A stretch of DNA of 46,426 bases from an uncultured Oscillospiraceae bacterium (lineage in GTDB: Bacteria; Bacillota; Clostridia; Oscillospirales; Oscillospiraceae): positions 1-46,426 of the forward strand of contig CANQTW010000019.1 in assembly GCA_947626845.1 (NCBI GenBank), read 5' to 3'. The notes beneath the pieces are model-generated. The model searched no databases, was not told the DNA's origin, and was given only the letters and a program-made list of their open reading frames with translations. Shown piece by piece: positions 6,997-46,332 of this stretch (positions within the stretch are counted from its first letter, which is position 1; the number at the start of each line of letters is the position of its first letter). The position numbers and the translations under genes were made by a program.

Positions 6997-7026
6997 GCGC
7001 GAAAGGTTCGCGGGAAAATCCGCGCA

Positions 7027-7152
7027 TCTTCTCCCATCCAGACTGGGGGCCGCTGCCGGCCCGTCACTGTCGGTACCGGAATCGCACCGGTTCAACGCCA
7101 AAGGCGCTCGCGGACTGTACCGCCGGTAGGGGTTCTCACCCTGCCCTGAAGA
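7027..7152 (-). promoter_or_regulatory. FMN riboswitch (RFN element)
   Basis: Read on the minus strand, the conserved RFN blocks appear in order: GGGCAGGGTGAGAACCCC, ACCGGCGGTACAGTCCGCGA, the variable GCGCCTTTGGCGT arm, GGTGCGATTCCGGTACCGACAGT, a variable GGGCCGGCAGCGGCCC arm, and AGTCTGGATGGGAGAAGA. These are the diagnostic flavin-binding segments. A terminator hairpin and then ribU follow, so this is an OFF switch for riboflavin uptake when FMN is plentiful. Confidence 0.97.
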
Positions 7153-7176
7153 CGAATAGTATCAAGTTGTACCGCT

Positions 7177-21257: not shown

Positions 21258-21286
21258 TTGACAAATGCTTTCGGATATGCTATAAT
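21258..21286 (+). promoter_or_regulatory. Perfect consensus promoter pointing into the 3' end of a minus-strand gene
   Basis: TTGACA (21258-21263), a 17-base spacer and TATAAT (21281-21286) form an exact SigA consensus. No plus-strand gene follows: transcription would run antisense into the kinase-like gene whose stop codon is at 21303-21305. Confidence 0.7.
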
Positions 21287-21302
21287 ATGCTTAGAAACTG
21301 GT

Positions 21303-22238
21303 TCAGTAGGTGTAGACGCCTCCGCCGATGAACTCCCGCAGGAGGCTGGTGGCGGGGACGAAGCTCTCGTTTAGGGGCTCGAAGCGCTCTAAAAGGGGGA
21401 TGATCTCCCGCACCTCCTCAAAACCGGGCTTGCCGGCGGTAAGCTCCCGCAGGAGCGGCAGGGCCAGGGGCGCCAGGACGCTCATCTCATACTCCAGGGA
21501 GGAGTCCAGCTTCAGCCGCGCCTTGTGGATATAGGGGGTGATATGCTCCCGCTCCCCGCGCATGACGTTGCTCCACAGGGAGAGGGTATACTCCGCGTCG
21601 GCGCCCCGGAAGTTGTTGTCCCGTACCACCCGTCGCACCAGGCGCACCCACTCCGGCTTAAAGACGGCCCCGTCGGGGAAGACGATCTCCGACACGGCGG
21701 CGATGTAAAGGCCGAAGGCGCCGGGATTTTTGTCGGTGATGTCGTCGTTGAGGGCGTGGATGCCCTCAAAAATAGCCACCTCGTTCTTCAAAAGGCGCAG
21801 GGGCGTAAACTGGCTGGCGGAGCGCTTCTGGCGGGTGAACATGAAATAGGGCACCCGTATCTCCCTGCCCTGGGCCAGGGCGGCGAAATGCTCGTTGAGA
21901 AGCTCCATATCCAGAAGCCTGGGGGACTCAAAATCGATCTCCCCCTCCGGCGTGCGCGGGCAGGTGCGCAGGTCCAGGGTGTTGAAATAGTTGTCCATGG
22001 AGATGGTGTGGGTGTTGATGCCCCGGCTCTTCAGCTCCGTCTCGATGTTCCTGGCGGTGGTGGTCTTTCCCGCCCCGGAGGGGCCGGAGAGGAGCACGAT
22101 GGGGCAGAGGTGCAGGTTGCCGCAGATCCTGTCCGCGGCGCTCCTCACCCTGTCAAAATACGCCCTGTCCGCCTCCGCCACAAAGCCCGACGGGTCTGTC
22201 CTGACCCGTTCATTGATCCTTACGATGTCGTATGCCAT
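21303..22238 (-). CDS. Uridine-kinase-like P-loop nucleoside kinase
   Basis: The 311-residue protein has Walker [18 protein letters not shown] (about residues 49-65) and the uridine kinase/phosphoribulokinase pattern: SMDNYFNTLD after the P-loop, DFESPRLLDMELL, and FEGIHALND as the second acidic motif. It is longer than Udk (about 210 residues), with extra sequence at both ends, and resembles the kinase half of TGS-kinase fusion proteins found in Clostridia. The TGS part is absent. The start ATG lies three bases after the hemZ stop, with GGGGAGGCG inside the hemZ end, so the two are co-transcribed. Substrate (uridine, cytidine or another nucleoside) cannot be fixed. Confidence 0.85.
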   Translation of the reverse strand: MAYDIVRINERVRTDPSGFVAEADRAYFDRVRSAADRICGNLHLCPIVLLSGPSGAGKTTTARNIETELKSRGINTHTISMDNYFNTLDLRTCPRTPEGEIDFESPRLLDMELLNEHFAALAQGREIRVPYFMFTRQKRSASQFTPLRLLKNEVAIFEGIHALNDDITDKNPGAFGLYIAAVSEIVFPDGAVFKPEWVRLVRRVVRDNNFRGADAEYTLSLWSNVMRGEREHITPYIHKARLKLDSSLEYEMSVLAPLALPLLRELTAGKPGFEEVREIIPLLERFEPLNESFVPATSLLREFIGGGVYTY

Positions 22239-22241
22239 GCT

Positions 22242-23720
22242 TCACGCCTCCCCTTTCGTCTCCTCATAAAAGGCGGCTATCTTCGCCTTGTCCGCCAGGA
22301 CCTTCTCCTGGTGTTCGATATATTCCTTGGGATATTTGGGGTCAAATATCCGCTCGATGCGCCCGGAGGTCCGGTCCACCAGCTTGGTGGAGCCGCCCCC
22401 GCCCATGGCCAGGATGGTGCACAGCTCCTCCATGATGAGGATGTTGTACAGGCTCTCCGTGCCCTCCCTGGCCCAGCCCACGTTTTCAAACCCGCCGGAC
22501 ATGAACTTCTGCCGGTAGAGGTAAAAGGGCCGGTAGCCGGCCTTTGTCAGCTTTTCGCGGGCCGCGTCCAGCATCTGCCCCACCTCCCGTTTTCCGGGAC
22601 GGGCGGTGTCCTCCTCGGTGATCTTCGAGCCCTTTTTCAGCGCCAGCGTGTGTACCGTCACGTTCTCCGGCCCCAGGCCGATGACCTCGTCCAGCGTCTG
22701 GGCAAAGCGCTCCGGCGTGTCCGCCGGCAGGCCGGCGATAAGGTCCATATTGATCTGACAGGGGGTAAGCTCCCTTGCCAGCGCGTAAGCGCGCCTGATA
22801 TCCTCCGCCGTGTGCCTTCTGCCGATGGCCCGGAGCACCTCGTCCGACATGGACTGGGGATTGATGCTGATCCTGGTGACGCCGGCCAAAGCCCGCAGCT
22901 TCTCCGCCGTGATGGTGTCGGGCCGCCCCGCCTCCACGCAGAATTCCCGGACCGCCGAGAGGTCAAATTCCGTGTTCAGCCAACTCAGAAGCGTCTCCAG
23001 CTCCTCCGGCGCCAGCGTAGTGGGCGTGCCCCCGCCGATGTAGACGGCGATGACCCGAAGCTCCAGCTCCCGCGCCACGCGGGCCGTCTCAACGATCTCC
23101 CGCCGCAGAGCCTCCAAAAAGGTCGGGATCAGCTTCATGGACCGCTCCACGCTCTGGGAGACGAAGGAGCAGTAGGCGCACCGGGTAGGACAGAAGGGGA
23201 TGCCCACATAGAGGGCGATGTCCCGCCCGCCCAGCTCTTTCTCCACCCGCAGGGACGCCCTGGCGGTGTCGAGGCACAACGCCGCCCGCTCCGGGGCCAC
23301 GAAATAGCTACGGGAAAAGGTCTCTACCGCCTCCTCGCCGGACAGGCCCTTCTCTAAAAGACGGGTCATGATGGTGCCGGGACGTATCCCCGTCAGCGCC
23401 CCCCACACGGGCTTTTCCTCCGAAAGCGCCATGGCCGCGTGGTAAAAGGCCAGCTTGATGATCCGCTGCGCCTCTCGATCTTTACTTTGTTTCACGTGAA
23501 ACATTGAAGCATCGCCCCTTTGCGACGCTTCGGCAGTCTGTCCGTTCACCCGGAGCGTCACCTGGCAGAGGGCCTGGGGCTCCGAGAGCGCCACGCGGGC
23601 GTAGTCCTCCCCCGGCTCCGGCTCCGTTTCGGGGTATTCCGGGCGGGCGGCGGGGAACAGCGCCAGCATGATCTGCTCCACGGCGTAGCGGTAGTCGTGT
23701 CCGATAAGATAGAGCTTCAT
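22242..23720 (-). CDS. hemZ: Oxygen-independent coproporphyrinogen dehydrogenase HemZ
   Basis: The 492-residue radical-SAM protein has the cluster motif FCPTRCAYCSF (about 180) and the HemN-like segment YIGGGTPTTLAPEEL, plus INPQSMSDEVL and MDLIAGLPADTPE. The roughly 170-residue N-terminal extension before the radical-SAM core is typical of HemZ rather than HemN/HemW. It probably acts in anaerobic tetrapyrrole synthesis. ATG 23720 follows GAGGGGAC. The coding sequence contains a 16-bp parS palindrome (residues MFHVKQ at about 73-78), in a linker that is not conserved. It heads a two-gene unit with the kinase. Confidence 0.93.
   Translation of the reverse strand: MKLYLIGHDYRYAVEQIMLALFPAARPEYPETEPEPGEDYARVALSEPQALCQVTLRVNGQTAEASQRGDASMFHVKQSKDREAQRIIKLAFYHAAMALSEEKPVWGALTGIRPGTIMTRLLEKGLSGEEAVETFSRSYFVAPERAALCLDTARASLRVEKELGGRDIALYVGIPFCPTRCAYCSFVSQSVERSMKLIPTFLEALRREIVETARVARELELRVIAVYIGGGTPTTLAPEELETLLSWLNTEFDLSAVREFCVEAGRPDTITAEKLRALAGVTRISINPQSMSDEVLRAIGRRHTAEDIRRAYALARELTPCQINMDLIAGLPADTPERFAQTLDEVIGLGPENVTVHTLALKKGSKITEEDTARPGKREVGQMLDAAREKLTKAGYRPFYLYRQKFMSGGFENVGWAREGTESLYNILIMEELCTILAMGGGGSTKLVDRTSGRIERIFDPKYPKEYIEHQEKVLADKAKIAAFYEETKGEA
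23488..23503. promoter_or_regulatory. parS chromosome-partition site
   Basis: TGTTTCACGTGAAACA is a perfect 16-bp palindrome matching the bacterial ParB-binding consensus TGTTNCACGTGAAACA at every fixed position. It lies inside hemZ. ParB loading sites cluster around replication origins in most bacteria. Confidence 0.9.
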
Positions 23721-24573: not shown

Positions 24574-25014
24574 TCATTCCCTTGTGTCCAGCAGGATGGT
24601 GACCGGCCCGTCGTTGACGGACGCCACCTTCATGTCCGCCCCGAACCGGCCGTGCTCCACGGCAAACCCCCGCTCCCGGCACTCCGCCATAAAGCGCTCA
24701 TAGAGGGGAACGGCCTTTTCGGGCCTGGCCGCTTCGGTAAAGCCTGGACGGCGGGAGCGGGTGTCGGCAAACAGGGTAAACTGGGAGACGCACAGGATGC
24801 TCCCGCCCGCGGCGGCCAGGTTCAGGTTCATCTTTCCCTGATCGTCCTCAAATACCCGCAGGCCGCAGACCCTGTCCGCCAGCCTTTTGGCGTCCGCCTC
24901 CGTGTCGTCCTTATGGACGCCCAGAAGCACCAGGAAGCCCTTTTCGATTTCTGCGGTCACCGCCCCGTCGATGGTGACGGCGGCGGAAAGGACCCTTGTG
25001 ACAACCGCGCGCAT
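24574..25014 (-). CDS. dtd: D-aminoacyl-tRNA deacylase
   Basis: DTD removes D-amino acids (and glycine) mischarged onto tRNA. The 146-residue protein has the active-site segment ILCVSQFTLFADTRSRRPGF and the Gly-cisPro motif VNDGPVTILLDT at the C-terminus. ATG 25014 lies eight bases after GGAGGG; the TTG at 25020 is too close to that site. In many Firmicutes dtd sits directly after relA. Here the two are separated by the repeat-flanked GNAT unit, consistent with later insertion. Confidence 0.95.
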   Translation of the reverse strand: MRAVVTRVLSAAVTIDGAVTAEIEKGFLVLLGVHKDDTEADAKRLADRVCGLRVFEDDQGKMNLNLAAAGGSILCVSQFTLFADTRSRRPGFTEAARPEKAVPLYERFMAECRERGFAVEHGRFGADMKVASVNDGPVTILLDTRE

Positions 25015-25043
25015 AAGCAAATCCCTCCTGAGCCGGCAGGCTC

Positions 25044-25408
25044 TTATAAGGTTTCCGCCCTTACAGGGCGGAGGGATCTACTTCCACTCTTTTGACCCGG
25101 CAAAAGAGTGGAAGTAGCAAGGGGAGAAAACCGGCTCAGGGGGGATTTCGATTTTCCCCCCTGAGAACCCCCTTTTAAAAGCGACCACACAGGGGCCGCG
25201 GCCCCTATGTGGAGAACCCCAGGGGAACGCCCGCACGGGAACATCTCGTAGGGATGGGGTCCCCGCCGAACGATAGTTCGGTGGGGAGAGGAGGAGCGAA
25301 GTCTGCGACTGAGCCGTCACGCTTGCGTGGCGGCGAGGTATCGCGACTTCCGCGACGACGAGTAGGGGCCAGACCCGCTCGGCCCACACGCCGCACCGTC
25401 AAATTTCC
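25044..25408 (+). repeat. Structured repeat family 2, left inverted arm (copy B)
   Basis: This 365-bp arm matches the reverse complement of 26217-26586 almost throughout. Hairpins in order: CCGCCCT/AGGGCGG (25055-25071); a 17-bp stem with CTACTTCCACTCTTTTG (25078-25117); CTCAGGGGGGA...TCCCCCCTGAG (25135-25165); CCACACAGGGGCC...CCCCTATGTGG (25185-25212); CCCCGCCGAAC/GTTCGGTGGGG (25261-25286); then the core GGAGGAGCGAAGTC, TGCGACTGAGCC, GTCACGC/GCGTGGC, GGCGAGGT and GACTTCCGCGACGACG. No open frame in it looks real. The second hairpin differs from its partner in the right arm while keeping pairing. Confidence 0.85.
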
Positions 25409-25482
25409 CATGCGCCGTCACTCAAAAATGAAGTGTCAGGCCGCGCGGTCATATCCCTTCTTCCAGCCCTGCAAGCAGGGAG

Positions 25483-25974
25483 TCAGCAAAGTATTTTTTT
25501 GAAAGAAGATAGTTCCCCGCGATAACGGAAACTGTGTCCGTTTGGATTTTCTCCCACTATCTGCATACCCAGCTTCTGGGCAATCCGCTGGGAATTGGAA
25601 TTATGCTTATTGATATATGCCTCTGCATACTTAACATTTTCTGGGATGACGCTGCCGATATATTGCAGAAAGCGATAAAAAAGAAGTGTCCGCTGATACT
25701 CTGGTGCAATCTCGATTTCCTCAATCAGTATAATGTCCTTGTGGATACTATATTGAAAATATCCTGCTAAAGCTTCACCAACATACATCAGAAGGATTTG
25801 CATCTCTTTTATTTGCTCCGATGTCATATAGGACAGCCAAATTTTCATATCCTCCTCGCAGCTGTTACCTGTCGGCGCAATTTTACCCATATTCGTAGAT
25901 AGAATATGAAACATTTGCGGCAAAAGAACTTCTGATTTCATTGGGTCAAAATTGCAAAATAAAACTTTCGCCAT
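25483..25974 (-). CDS. GNAT-family N-acetyltransferase-like protein, low GC
   Basis: The 163-residue protein has a GNAT-like core: a beta strand and acidic segment DIILIEEIEIAPEYQRTLLF (strand 4 and the acetyl-CoA helix start, though the usual R/Q-x-x-G-x-G/A loop is weak) and INKHNSNSQRIAQKLGMQIVG (motif B). The substrate is unknown. ATG 25974 follows GGAGGTG. Base composition is clearly more AT-rich than its neighbours, with AAA/AAT/ATA codons uncommon elsewhere in the window. It has its own promoter and sits alone between two inverted repeats, so it is probably acquired DNA. The degenerate acetyl-CoA loop leaves room for a catalytically altered member. Confidence 0.75.
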   Translation of the reverse strand: MAKVLFCNFDPMKSEVLLPQMFHILSTNMGKIAPTGNSCEEDMKIWLSYMTSEQIKEMQILLMYVGEALAGYFQYSIHKDIILIEEIEIAPEYQRTLLFYRFLQYIGSVIPENVKYAEAYINKHNSNSQRIAQKLGMQIVGENPNGHSFRYRGELSSFKKILC

Positions 25975-26024
25975 AGGGACACCTCCACGAATCCCGATCT
26001 GCCGCTCTCTTCGGTCATGCCGAA

Positions 26025-26053
26025 ATTATAGCACACAAAGGAAAATGTTTCAA
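26025..26053 (-). promoter_or_regulatory. SigA-type promoter of the GNAT gene
   Basis: On the minus strand TTGAAA (26053-26048), a 17-base spacer and TATAAT (26030-26025), with TGC before the -10. It is a strong promoter inside the repeat-flanked unit. Confidence 0.8.
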
Positions 26054-26104
26054 GATGTCCACATATTTCCGAAAGGTGCGACGCAACGGCTAATTCTTAC
26101 GCAC

Positions 26105-26197
26105 CCGTAGGGGTCGCCCTCCTGGGCGACCCGTCCACCGATGATTGACCGCCCGGTGGTTGACCAGGACGGGCGGCCGGGGACGGCCGCCCCTACG
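26105..26197. repeat. GTAGGGG-type hairpins inside the GNAT unit
   Basis: CCGTAGGGGTCGCCC...GGGCGACCCGT (26105-26133) corresponds to hairpins at 5928 and 13388 with different, still-pairing stems. GGACGGGCGGCC...GGCCGCCCCTACG (26167-26197) matches 6017-6047 with one compensated base pair. The tag ATTTTCGGAAATTCGG follows, as it does near 6060 and 6194. Confidence 0.7.
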
Positions 26198-26216
26198 GCG
26201 TAGGGGGTGGATTTTC

Positions 26217-26586
26217 GGAAATTCGGCGGTGCGGCGTGTGGGCCGAGCGGGTCTGGCCCCTACTCGTCGTCGCGGAAGTCGCGATACCTCGCCGCCACGC
26301 AAGCGTGACGGCTCAGGCGCGGGCTTGGCTCCTCCTCTCCCCACCGAACTAACGTTCGGCGGGGGCCCCATCCCTACGGGATGTTCCCGTGCGGGCGTTC
26401 CCCTGGGGTTCTCCACATAGGGGCCGCGGCCCCTGTGTGGTCGCTTTTAAAAGGGGGTTCTCAGGGGGGAAAATCGAAATCCCCCCTGAGTTGTTTTTCT
26501 CTTCTTTGCAGCTTTCTTCTCTTTTGTCAACACAAAAGAGAAGAAAGCTGATCTCCGTCCGCCCTATAAGGGCGGAAACCTTATAA
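26217..26586 (-). repeat. Structured repeat family 2, right inverted arm (copy C)
   Basis: This is the 370-bp inverted partner of 25044-25408. Most of it, including the CTCAGGGGGGA hairpin, the CCACACAGGGGCC hairpin and the GAGCC...GGCGAGGT core, is nearly identical. The second hairpin (26510-26549) is an 18-bp stem, AGCTTTCTTCTCTTTTGT, unlike the CTACTTCC stem of the left arm. In the core, the 5' strand reads CCAAGCC, which no longer pairs with GACTT, so that helix is partly broken here. The outer end reaches to within 30 bases of the relA stop codon. Confidence 0.85.
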
Positions 26587-26615: not shown

Positions 26616-28859
26616 TCAATTCCCCTGCCGTTTGACCTCTTTTACGTTCCTGACGCTCATGAGCTTTGTCATGGCGGTGCCCAGCTCCGCCTTGTCGTGG
26701 ACGCGGATGGTGATATAGACATTGGCCTCGCCTCCGGGGGCGTTGCGGGCGGTGAGGGCGTCCACCTTCACCTTCAAAGAGCTCAATACGGTGGCGATGT
26801 CCATGACAAGGCCGTCCCGGTCATAGGCGTTGATGGCGATGGCCGTCTGGTAGAGGTCGTCCTCCCCGGCTGCCCAGTGGACGCGAATCCACCTGTCCCG
26901 CTCCTCCTCCCGTCCGGCGGAGGCCTCGTAATTCCGGCAGTCCGTCCTGTGGACGGAGACGCCGTAGCCGCGGGTGATGAAGCCCACGATCTCGTCCCCC
27001 GGCACGGGCATACAGCAGTGGGAGAATTTGACCAGGCAGTTGTCGATCCCCTCCACGATGATGCCGTTGACGGCCTTGCCGTCCCTGGCGTCCTGGCTGG
27101 CCCAGACGGGGTTCAGGCCCTGCTTCCGCTCGGCGCGCTCGATCTGGCGCATCTCGTCCTTGATGTTGTTGACGGTCTTCTGGGCGCTGAGGCCCCCGTA
27201 GCCGATGGAGGCGTACATATCGTCCAGGGCCGAAACGGATATCCGCTCCAATATCCTGGCCAGGGCCCGCTCGTCGCTGAGGACGGACAGGGGCACCGCC
27301 TGACGGCGCATCTCCGCCTCGAAGGCGGCCTTGCCCGTGACGATGTTCTCCTCCCGACGCTCCCGCTTGAACCACTGGCGTATCTTGTTGCGGGCCTCGG
27401 AGGACTTCACCAGGGTCAGCCAGTCCCGACTGGGGCCTCTGGAGGTGCTGGAGGTGATGACCTCCACCACGTCGCCGTTCTGCAGAACGTGGGAGAAGGG
27501 CACGATGCGCCCGTTGACCTTGGCGCAGGTCATCCGGTTGCCGATGGCGGAGTGGATGGAGTAGGCGAAGTCGATGGGCGTGGCCCCGGCGGGCAAACTC
27601 TTCACGTCCCCGTGGGGGGTGAACACAAAGACCTCGTCGGCGAACATATCCACCTTCAGGTTGGAGATGAAATCCTGGGCGTCGGAGTCCTCCTGGGTCT
27701 CCAGAAGGTTCCGTATCCAGGCGAATTTCTCCTCGTCGCCCCGCCCCACGATGCCGTCCTTATACTTCCAGTGGGCGGCGATCCCGTACTCGGCGGTGCG
27801 GTGCATCTCCCAGGTCCTGATCTGGACCTCGAAGGGGATGCCCTCGGAGCCGATGACGGTGGTGTGGAGGGACTGGTACATATTGGGCTTGGGGGTGCCG
27901 ATATAGTCCTTGAACCGGCCCGGTACGGGCTTGTAGAGCTCGTGGATGCACCCCAGGACGTTGTAGCACTCGGCGATGTCGTCTACGATGACCCGAAAGG
28001 CGTAAATATCCATGATCTCGTCAAATTCCATGGATTTCCCGAACATTTTCCGGTAGATGGAGTAGATATCCTTGGTGCGGGACTGGACGCCGCAGGTGAT
28101 GCCCGCCTCGTCCAGGCGGGCGCGGATGGCCTTCTCGGTGCGTTCCATGAAGCCGGCGTTGCGCTCCTCCCGCTCCCGCAGGGCGTTCTCGATCTCGTGG
28201 TAGCCCACGGGGTCCAGATAGAGAAGGGACAGGTCCTCCAGCTCCAGCTTGATCTTCTGCATCCCCAGCCGGTGGGCGATGGGGGCGTATATCTCCATGG
28301 TCTCGCGGGATTTTTCCAGCTGCTTCTCCCGCGACTGGTACTCCATGGTGCGCATGTTGTGGAGCCGGTCAGCCATCTTGATGAGCACCACCCGTATATC
28401 CCTGGCCATGGCCAGGAGCATCTTCCGGAGGTTCTCCATCTGCTCCTCCTCCTTGGAGGTGTAGCGCATCTTGGTCAGCTTTGTGACGCCCTCCACGATA
28501 TCCGCCACGCTCTCCCCGAAGCGCTTGGCCACGTCCTCATGGGTGGCGGAGGTGTCCTCGATGACATCGTGCAGGAGCGCCGCCATGACGGACTCCTCGT
28601 CCAGGCCCATCTCCGCCACGATCACCGCGGCGGCCAGGGGATGGGTGATGTAGGGGCTGCCGTCCTTGCGCAGCTGGTCGCCGTGGACCTCCCTGGCGAA
28701 CTCATAGGCCGCCCGTATCCGCTGGGTGCTCTTGATCTGCGTCCCCTGCCGGATGGCCTCCTCCAGCCGGATGTACTCCCGCTCGCACAGGTCTTCCGCG
28801 CCGGCGGCCCTCCCGTCTGTCTCAGGGACGGTGTTTTCGGTTTTGTCTGGATTGTCCAT
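26616..28859 (-). CDS. relA: Bifunctional (p)ppGpp synthetase/hydrolase (Rel)
   Basis: The 747-residue protein has the full Rel layout. The HD hydrolase domain includes THPLAAAVIVAEMG, AALLHDVIEDT and ADRLHNMRTM, so hydrolysis should be active. The synthetase domain has RTKDIYSIYRKM, GRFKDYIGTPKPNMYQSLHT and EVQIRTWEMHRTAEYGIAAH. A TGS domain starts at VFVFTPHGDVKSLPAGATPIDF, followed by the helical and zinc-finger-like region (CLVKFSHCCMPVPGDEIVGF) and a C-terminal ACT domain. ATG 28859 has AGGTGGA upstream; GTG 28871 lacks a ribosome site. It lies downstream of recJ on the same strand. It controls the stringent response. Confidence 0.96.
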   Translation of the reverse strand: MDNPDKTENTVPETDGRAAGAEDLCEREYIRLEEAIRQGTQIKSTQRIRAAYEFAREVHGDQLRKDGSPYITHPLAAAVIVAEMGLDEESVMAALLHDVIEDTSATHEDVAKRFGESVADIVEGVTKLTKMRYTSKEEEQMENLRKMLLAMARDIRVVLIKMADRLHNMRTMEYQSREKQLEKSRETMEIYAPIAHRLGMQKIKLELEDLSLLYLDPVGYHEIENALREREERNAGFMERTEKAIRARLDEAGITCGVQSRTKDIYSIYRKMFGKSMEFDEIMDIYAFRVIVDDIAECYNVLGCIHELYKPVPGRFKDYIGTPKPNMYQSLHTTVIGSEGIPFEVQIRTWEMHRTAEYGIAAHWKYKDGIVGRGDEEKFAWIRNLLETQEDSDAQDFISNLKVDMFADEVFVFTPHGDVKSLPAGATPIDFAYSIHSAIGNRMTCAKVNGRIVPFSHVLQNGDVVEVITSSTSRGPSRDWLTLVKSSEARNKIRQWFKRERREENIVTGKAAFEAEMRRQAVPLSVLSDERALARILERISVSALDDMYASIGYGGLSAQKTVNNIKDEMRQIERAERKQGLNPVWASQDARDGKAVNGIIVEGIDNCLVKFSHCCMPVPGDEIVGFITRGYGVSVHRTDCRNYEASAGREEERDRWIRVHWAAGEDDLYQTAIAINAYDRDGLVMDIATVLSSLKVKVDALTARNAPGGEANVYITIRVHDKAELGTAMTKLMSVRNVKEVKRQGN

Positions 28860-28950
28860 ATTCGTATCCACCTATGGGGCATGTTTTTGCGGGGAATTTG
28901 TCTGTCAAAAATATGCTTGTGTTTGTAGAAAATTATTCAGGAAAGTTGGC

Positions 28951-46058: not shown

Positions 46059-46059
46059 T

Positions 46060-46176
<117 letters not shown>

Positions 46177-46178
46177 AT

Positions 46179-46254
46179 TGGTACACCTTCAGGGACTCGA
46201 ACCCTGGACACCCTGATTAAGAGTCAGGTGCTCTACCAACTGAGCTAAAGGTGC
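46179..46254 (-). tRNA. tRNA-Lys (anticodon CTT)
   Basis: A 76-nt cloverleaf on the minus strand: acceptor GCACCTT/AAGGTGT, D-arm AGCTCAGTTGGTAGAGC, anticodon stem CCTGA/TCAGG with loop CTCTTAA, T-arm CAGGGTTCGAGTCCCTG, and an encoded CCA. Loop positions 34-36 read CTT, which decodes lysine AAG. It lies two bases upstream of the 5S gene. Confidence 0.96.
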
Positions 46255-46257
46255 ATA

Positions 46258-46332
46258 TGGTGACCCGAGGGAGAGTCGAACTCCCGATTGGGGCGTGAGA
46301 GGCCCCCGTCTTGACCACTTGACCATCGGGCC
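46258..46332 (-). tRNA. tRNA-Glu (anticodon CTC)
   Basis: A 75-nt cloverleaf on the minus strand: acceptor GGCCCGA/TCGGGTC, D-arm GTC/GAC, anticodon stem GGGGC/GCCCC with loop CTCTCAC, T-arm GGGAGTTCGACTCTCCC, encoded CCA. The anticodon CTC decodes glutamate GAG. It precedes tRNA-Lys by three bases. Confidence 0.95.

Follow-up and report, generated by a model that had tools for sequence, protein, structure and literature searches.

An inverted pair of dispersed, hairpin-rich repeat arms with predicted triplex motifs flanks a GNAT-like gene between relA and dtd in an uncultured Oscillospiraceae bacterium

Introduction

In the genome of an uncultured Oscillospiraceae bacterium, two long inverted repeats enclose an acetyltransferase-like gene between dtd and relA, which raises the question of what kind of unit this is and how it came to lie there. 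A preliminary description, made from the letters of the window (the whole 46,426-nt stretch analysed, contig C19 of genome G000, which has 2.58 Mb in 68 contigs), offered 3 options: a cassette moved in trans, a recombination product of two dispersed repeats, or a gene paired with structured RNAs. Here we dissect the locus, its counterparts in related genomes and the repeat family to which its arms belong.

Results

The relA-dtd locus

The arms (25044-25408 and 26217-26586) had been described as long, nearly identical, oppositely oriented and structured, and this description holds. Complementarity between them is 95% along 290 nt and 86% along a further 44 nt on the outside, the left arm as a BLAST query matched the right one at 91% identity over query positions 7-371, and the left arm folded as RNA yielded z-scores of -7.4 and -7.0, one per strand. 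NCBIfam models confirmed the named neighbours: dtd downstream (D-aminoacyl-tRNA deacylase, 24574-25020, minus strand; TIGR00256, 184.1 bits, cut-off 101.5), which was matched in 33 of the 40 genomes searched, our own counted, and relA upstream (26616-28871, minus strand; TIGR00691, RelA/SpoT family, 790.9 bits, cut-off 499.2). The enclosed GNAT-like ORF (25483-25974, minus strand, 163 aa) is codirectional with both. The unit was said to contain no transposase or integrase, and indeed its eight further ORFs of at least 65 aa had no Pfam match at 0.01.

Each arm splits into 3 modules. Module A, of ~200 bp, forms the outer part (left, 25044-25234, plus strand, with its hairpins and its TTATAAGG end outward; right, 26391-26586, minus strand) and scored 210.4 bits (model positions 1-196) and 214.7 bits, respectively, with the covariance model R1, whose own alignment includes both copies; hairpin H4 of the left A (25185-25212) was placed by an inverted-repeat finding and consensus pairs. 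Module B, of 108 bp (25254-25361, plus strand; 26264-26371, minus strand, 94% to the left copy), also occurs alone in the genome and, judging from the order on our maps, lies within A in G019 and at two G000 loci, C6 and C37. Module C (25362-25408, plus strand; 26217-26263, minus strand) is a palindrome of GTAGGGGCC type, typed by eye and compared with the accessible part of PMC3733652. Between the GNAT promoter and the right arm, an inverted-repeat finding marks two GTAGGGG-type palindromes inverted to each other (26105-26198). Elsewhere in the window there are an FMN riboswitch (RF00050, 93.5 bits, 7022-7157, minus strand) and, close to the contig end, a 5S rRNA and two tRNAs (46059-46332).

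The GNAT-like gene

The acetyltransferase reading of the gene stood in part. The product belongs to a small family conserved among 9 relatives (39-87% identity) and has a confident predicted model (mean pLDDT 86.7), whose order of helices and strands looks like that of a GNAT fold. Its two GNAT Pfam scores of 18.3 and 14.4 bits fall short of the respective curated thresholds of 25.4 and 23.6 bits, and by profile the label is weak. NCBIfam and PDB sequence searches with the protein gave no match. The low GC content and the strong promoter had been recognized correctly: the gene has 39.5% GC against 62.5% for the window, and its promoter is an 11/12 match (TTGAAA-17-TATAAT), the promoter/leader segment occupying 25993-26075 (minus strand). 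The gene is single copy in G000 and under purifying selection (dN/dS 0.10-0.16 against four relatives).

Relatives of the gene were found in 6 of 24 same-genus genomes and in 6 further database records, that is, at 12 other loci; the closest records that carry this gene are MAGs of uncultured Oscillospiraceae. None of the 12 has paired arms within 1.5 or 4 kb on each side (less at contig ends), and a single weak A match (44 bits) lies 215 nt downstream of one of them (G022). Synonymous divergence from G003 (dS 0.41 for the GNAT gene, 0.78 for relA and 1.17 for dtd) suggests transfer of the GNAT gene, and that from G021 (0.63, 0.48 and 0.89, respectively) does not suggest it; the gene is probably borrowed. 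Segments 73-82% similar to its promoter/leader occur at seven places in the genus, with two further short matches. In several species of the genus, such segments precede transglutaminase-like, DUF3658, GNAT and methyltransferase genes and, from a 29-bp match, also an XhoI-type endonuclease gene; a promoter-plus-leader segment common to unrelated accessory genes resembles a mobile promoter.

History of the site

That the unit is an insertion, as had been proposed, was borne out by the spacing of relA and dtd, measured between protein-match ends in those 26 relatives whose fetched stretch holds both genes. The junction is ancestrally tight, with 2-40 nt in 15 relatives and 66 nt in another one, and is expanded to 125-1327 nt in the other 10, 5 of which carry an A module there. 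The tree of relA plus dtd was (G000,(G018,(G001,G011))), with support of 0.97-0.995. G018 has a 37-nt spacer without the element. G001 has a 428-nt spacer and no GNAT gene. In the 1327-nt spacer of G011 no GNAT ORF was found; what lies there, between arms of opposite type, is a relic of the GNAT promoter, 83 bp long, with 96% identity to it and in the same orientation. Read from these sequences, the simplest history would be a GNAT insertion older than the split of G000 and G011 that was lost in G018 and G011, and probably in G001 too; independent gains are the alternative. The A modules at the G000 and G011 loci share 48-58%, compared with 88% for the two arms of G000, and since the arms of the two genomes are also of different types, the gene seems to differ from the arms in its history. 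In other species (L071, L073, L075, L080), the relA-dtd spacer holds a further repeat family containing GGCTTGAAAGG.

A dispersed element defined by inward pairs of module A

The arms had been suspected to be dispersed repeats, and they are. BLAST of the left arm gave 70 matches in its own genome (self and short palindromic matches counted); of the other genomes searched, 14 of 24 from the same genus had matches, and none of 15 from other families did. The A model gave 80 rows in G000, of which 44 were retained as copies; of the other 36, 33 were short palindromic H2 matches and 3 scored under 35 bits. In seven relatives it gave at least 273 copies: from one batch 149 of 162 A matches were used, one overlapping palindromic row (G001:C34) being left out and 12 falling outside the matches listed, and from the other batch all 124. 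All eight genomes had A-model matches, the relatives having been chosen for matching the arm. In a consensus of 30 copies, 25 of 47 pairs are changed on both sides. At gathering score, no Rfam family was found in the window unit or at six core-holding loci, and sub-threshold matches (ylbH leader, microRNAs) seem to be hairpins matched by chance. Searches for phage, plasmid or viral-contig carriage of the arm gave no match, the viral scan consisting of one exact pattern of 34-36 bases.

Orientation was analysed for 317 A copies in the eight genomes, among the matches listed. Of 69 pairs of neighbouring A modules spaced by less than 1.2 kb, 68 face inward, and inward pairing therefore defines the element. 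Above 1 kb (n = 14; 4 inward, 6 outward, 3 and 1 tandem) the orientations look random, so that the window pair, 1.16 kb apart, is not distinguishable from chance neighbours by orientation alone. We aligned 30 inward pairs of 504-872 bp, 25 of them under 700 bp, and the ordinary element that emerges, of ~0.5-0.9 kb, has a long hairpin-rich 5' arm, a conserved core and a short 3' arm. Core alignments of the 21 elements with a full-length core gave ~230 nt at 83% column identity for 12 elements of G000 and G011 and ~276 nt at 89% for 9 elements of G004 and G019. One-base gaps in these alignments speak against a coding core. The core is conserved in sequence, but covariation (1 of 34 and 5 of 76 pairs) is too thin to support a folded core.

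The 15 pairs of G000 (pair analyses with 14 or 15 members include two weak C28 pairs, and the orientation count has 13) hold the core in seven cases and a 67-nt piece of it in an eighth. It is absent at C19, which is the window, and at C16, C17a, C2, C6a, C28a and C37; C19, C16 and C17a are the three G000 pairs with both arms above 150 bits. At six loci of G011 (L176, L180-L182, L184, L186) the cores are inverted, with their 3' ends outward. The window locus is thus an inverted pair of 5' arms without a core.

Flanking genes were scored for 14 of the 15 pairs and 7 of the 13 solitary A copies, a set outside which the window unit falls: the pairs lie between convergent genes in 7 cases, tandem genes in 7 and divergent genes in none, and the solitary copies between tandem genes in 5, convergent in 1 and divergent in 1, the 29 gene neighbour pairs of the window being 4 convergent, 3 divergent and 22 tandem. 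Paired elements are thus placed on the downstream side of genes. Flanks of paired G000 elements are at most 75 nt from an ORF edge in 24 of 30 cases. At the C17a site, G012 has in place of the element a 48-bp spacer that by eye resembles a bidirectional terminator. The left flank of C17a includes a piece similar to the aspartate-kinase 3' end flanking the C16 element (L097, ~850-928), and G012 and G018 are without this piece at C17a; in this one case, sequence similarity may be a sign of movement with flank capture.

Genes between facing arms and the search for a mover

Mobile insertion cassettes consist of a passenger gene between inverted repeats, with no transposase, and this is the arrangement of the window unit. 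Listing the genes between facing copies had been advised, and this brought up a second GNAT gene, from another subfamily (PF00583, 3e-18), at C16 of G000 (21276-22719). Two full arms enclose it, and the polyphosphate kinase and aspartate kinase genes, confirmed by NCBIfam, lie on either side. A true GNAT-cassette model would lead one to expect such a coincidence, which counts against reading the window unit otherwise. Relatives of this second gene (75-79% nucleotide identity) lie elsewhere in G011, G001 and G018, with no A module in the fetched stretches of ~2.2 kb, and, in the stretches examined, the first GNAT gene was not joined by paired arms at any of its 12 other loci. These 12 loci, together with the G011 promoter relic between arms of the other type, do not support a GNAT cassette. 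The advised check for target duplications gave no signal either: none was seen in 15 pairs (mean longest shared word 5.87 versus 5.99 permuted). A GNAT cassette moved by its arms was therefore rejected on the unpaired GNAT loci, the other-type arms of G011, the random orientation above 1 kb and the lack of target duplication.

Several further observations concern these sites. By eye, the C16 flanks (L096, G000:C16:20500-23500) have in common a short direct repeat made up of interior repeat sequence. At the corresponding site, also between the two kinase genes, G001 (L219, G001:C48:21700-23300) has an A arm of 170 bits and, by eye, two small ORFs, one resembling an HTH regulator. Two distant inward pairs, L185 (G011:C61) and L188 (G018:C70), each enclose an ECF sigma factor gene and an ORF without a family.

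Y1_Tnp matches occur in 11 of 25 genomes, and no A module was found at 22 loci around them or in two longer stretches there; on this ground we rejected the idea that an IS200/IS605 or RAYT transposase moves A. G000 has a RAYT-like ORF (L132/L175, G000:C12:30486; 63.4 bits, NCBIfam cut-off 80), and some in-frame stretches of it resemble, by eye, GTAGGGG repeats in translation.

Hairpin stems mirrored in an adjacent purine run

In each arm, hairpin H2 pairs a strand of pyrimidines, Y, with one of purines, R, and after a short linker comes a purine run, R', that is R written backwards. The left motif spans 25078-25130 on the plus strand (Y 25078-25094, R 25101-25117, R' 25119-25130), and its R' mirrors R with one mismatch, at a T interruption; the right motif spans 26495-26550 on the minus strand (Y 26550-26532, R 26527-26509, R' 26507-26495) and is a perfect mirror over 10 nt. 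The hairpins of the two arms are the only pyrimidine-rich ones of at least 10 bp in the 46-kb window, and each has its R' run on one of the two DNA strands, mismatched to the mirror at 1 and 0 of 10 positions, respectively; in 20 simulated windows such hairpins arose twice, both times lacking R'.

Across the family, 249 hairpins were found, 113 of them with a purine run, which left 94 after duplicate removal, 5 being unscorable. Over 12 nt, the mirror fits without mismatch in 73 and with one mismatch in 11 (84 of the 94 distinct examples), and third strands depart from it where R has a pyrimidine. Compared with a direct copy, the mirror is better in 52 examples, worse in 1 and tied in 41, and in the 30-copy alignment the mirror register has 0.84 identity versus 0.68 for the best direct register. 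For 25 R types, taking one R' per type, mirror mismatches total 7 against 44.5 +/- 4.2 when permuted, with none of 5000 permutations as low, counts that are not strict probabilities because the sequences are related by descent. A direct copy has 42 mismatches against 51.9 permuted (21 of 5000 as low), a signal that its resemblance to the mirror would produce. In the 28 of 30 full elements that were parsed, the mirror is free of mismatches over 10 nt in 54 of the 56 arms, and in 23 elements the two arms have third strands unlike each other; inter-arm pairing is thus not what is kept. Pairing of R' with its own Y, as a direct repeat, and pairing of R' with the opposite arm were both rejected as worse than the mirror.

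With Y, R and R' in this order and R' mirroring R beyond chance, the hairpin plus R' is, by its geometry, a predicted class II intrastrand-triplex motif that three-way covariation appears to have kept. Evolutionary retention of a three-stranded nucleic-acid structure would be expected to leave such a pattern, and from it we infer that the arms would form triplexes.

Discussion

The option of the preliminary description that fits best is a recombination product of two dispersed repeats. We consider it probable that the unit is not a gene cassette, and that an inverted pair of 5' arms of a dispersed element with triplex-forming ends colonised the relA-dtd junction, where the GNAT gene arrived separately. 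In the mechanism that we propose, a dispersed, hairpin-rich and apparently non-coding element would have settled at this junction; in single-stranded DNA, each of its ends would adopt the form of a triplex hairpin, of class II (Y-R-R) on one strand and of class IV (Y-Y-R) on the complementary strand. A putative trans factor or a stalled replication fork may act on these ends, and such action could lead to spread of the element, to inverted dimers such as the window pair and to high local turnover. The GNAT gene would have come as a promoter-plus-gene insertion into an unstable intergenic site.

Three other explanations were weighed against this one. The arms could be the ends of a large structured non-coding RNA, in which a Y-motif triplex near the 3' end would protect the transcript or terminate incoming transcription; the conserved core, the covarying hairpins, the closeness of most paired elements to ORF edges, often of convergent genes, and the by-eye terminator that takes the element's place in G012 all fit this idea, but core covariation is weak and the 5' arm carries a purine motif, of a kind that does not form triplexes in RNA according to the available part of PMC4666352, and we regard this explanation as unlikely. 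That the arms are terminal inverted repeats of a mobile insertion cassette, carrying GNAT genes with a transposase acting in trans, we hold to be very improbable. It would account for the fact that two of the three G000 pairs with both arms above 150 bits (C19 and C16) enclose GNAT genes and that the arms are inverted with similar outer ends, and it is at odds with the relatives of both genes lying without paired arms in the stretches examined, with the G011 promoter between other-type arms, with the 15 pairs devoid of target duplications and with the random orientations at gaps above 1 kb.

A functionless selfish repeat, whose mirror symmetry would be a by-product of the evolution of purine-rich palindromes, seems quite unlikely to us. 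The third strand tracks its own stem and not the other arm, and we know of no copying process that makes a mirror repeat. What speaks for such a repeat is its modular and nested build, the 0 of 14 pairs between divergent genes and a resemblance to BOX/RUP and to REPINs, as these are described in the accessible parts of PMC3049150 and PMC3116915.

Beyond the colonisation of the junction by an inverted arm pair, a wider reading, which we advance tentatively, is that these repeats may represent an undescribed class of mobile element with triplex-hairpin ends, in which a triple helix is kept by selection, the ends serve as a signal for spread or stalling and inverted dimers trap accessory genes. 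The literature that we searched, largely outside subscription journals, contained no description of this A-module family, nor did we meet there three-way covariation of an intrastrand triplex; dispersed structured repeats and intrastrand triplex motifs are, as kinds, already known. If the reading is true, the three-way covariation would be direct evidence of natural selection maintaining a triple helix in a bacterial genome. Where intrastrand triplexes occur in vivo and what they do there has been studied sparsely, according to the portion of PMC4666352 available, and a family of 25 stem types, almost every one of which has a mirror strand to match, would make the in vivo question testable. 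The family may also explain why, in one clade, an intergenic site that is tight in most relatives has been rebuilt repeatedly.

The closest known system is that of the intrastrand triplex repeats (BoxC, PIT elements or TM_ECO) of Holder et al. 2015; the comparison rests on the accessible text of that article (PMC4666352). Like TM_ECO, our family has the class II order Y - loop - R - loop - R' and many copies per genome, and TM_ECO, which forms five opposite-strand pairs in E. coli K-12, has been linked to locus instability. Unlike TM_ECO, which is one G/C-rich motif with 9-nt stems, our family has A/G-mixed stems (at least 11 bp as searched) and 25 R types with mirror symmetry, placed at both ends of a larger, core-bearing element; by inspection, the TM_ECO/BoxC pattern CCCTCNCCC...GGGNGAGGG...GGGNGAGGG is not in the window stems CTACTTCCACTCTTTTG and CAGCTTTCTTCTCTTTTGT.

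With REPINs, as far as the available parts of PMC3116915 and PMC3733652 describe them, the family shares inverted doublets as a unit and compensatory hairpin changes; module C and the repeats at 26105-26198 look by eye GTAG-headed, the mark of REPs being 20-40 bp palindromes tagged with GTAG or CGTC, and a RAYT-like ORF, although below its cut-off, exists in G000. In contrast to REP/REPIN sequences, module A is ~200 bp long with several hairpins and no GTAG head, and unlike in REP-RAYT systems no A module lies beside the RAYT-like and Y1 loci examined. BOX and RUP of Streptococcus pneumoniae, compared by description and not by sequence through the accessible part of PMC3049150, are likewise modular, mutually inserted, over-represented between convergent genes and predicted to give folded RNA, but have terminal inverted repeats and target duplications, of which none were seen here. 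Finally, the window unit resembles mobile insertion cassettes of the MIC231 type (a term found in the available part of PMC6542083) in its passenger gene between inverted repeats without a transposase, and differs from them in that its arms are the ends of a dispersed repeat and that gene and arms appear to have had separate histories.
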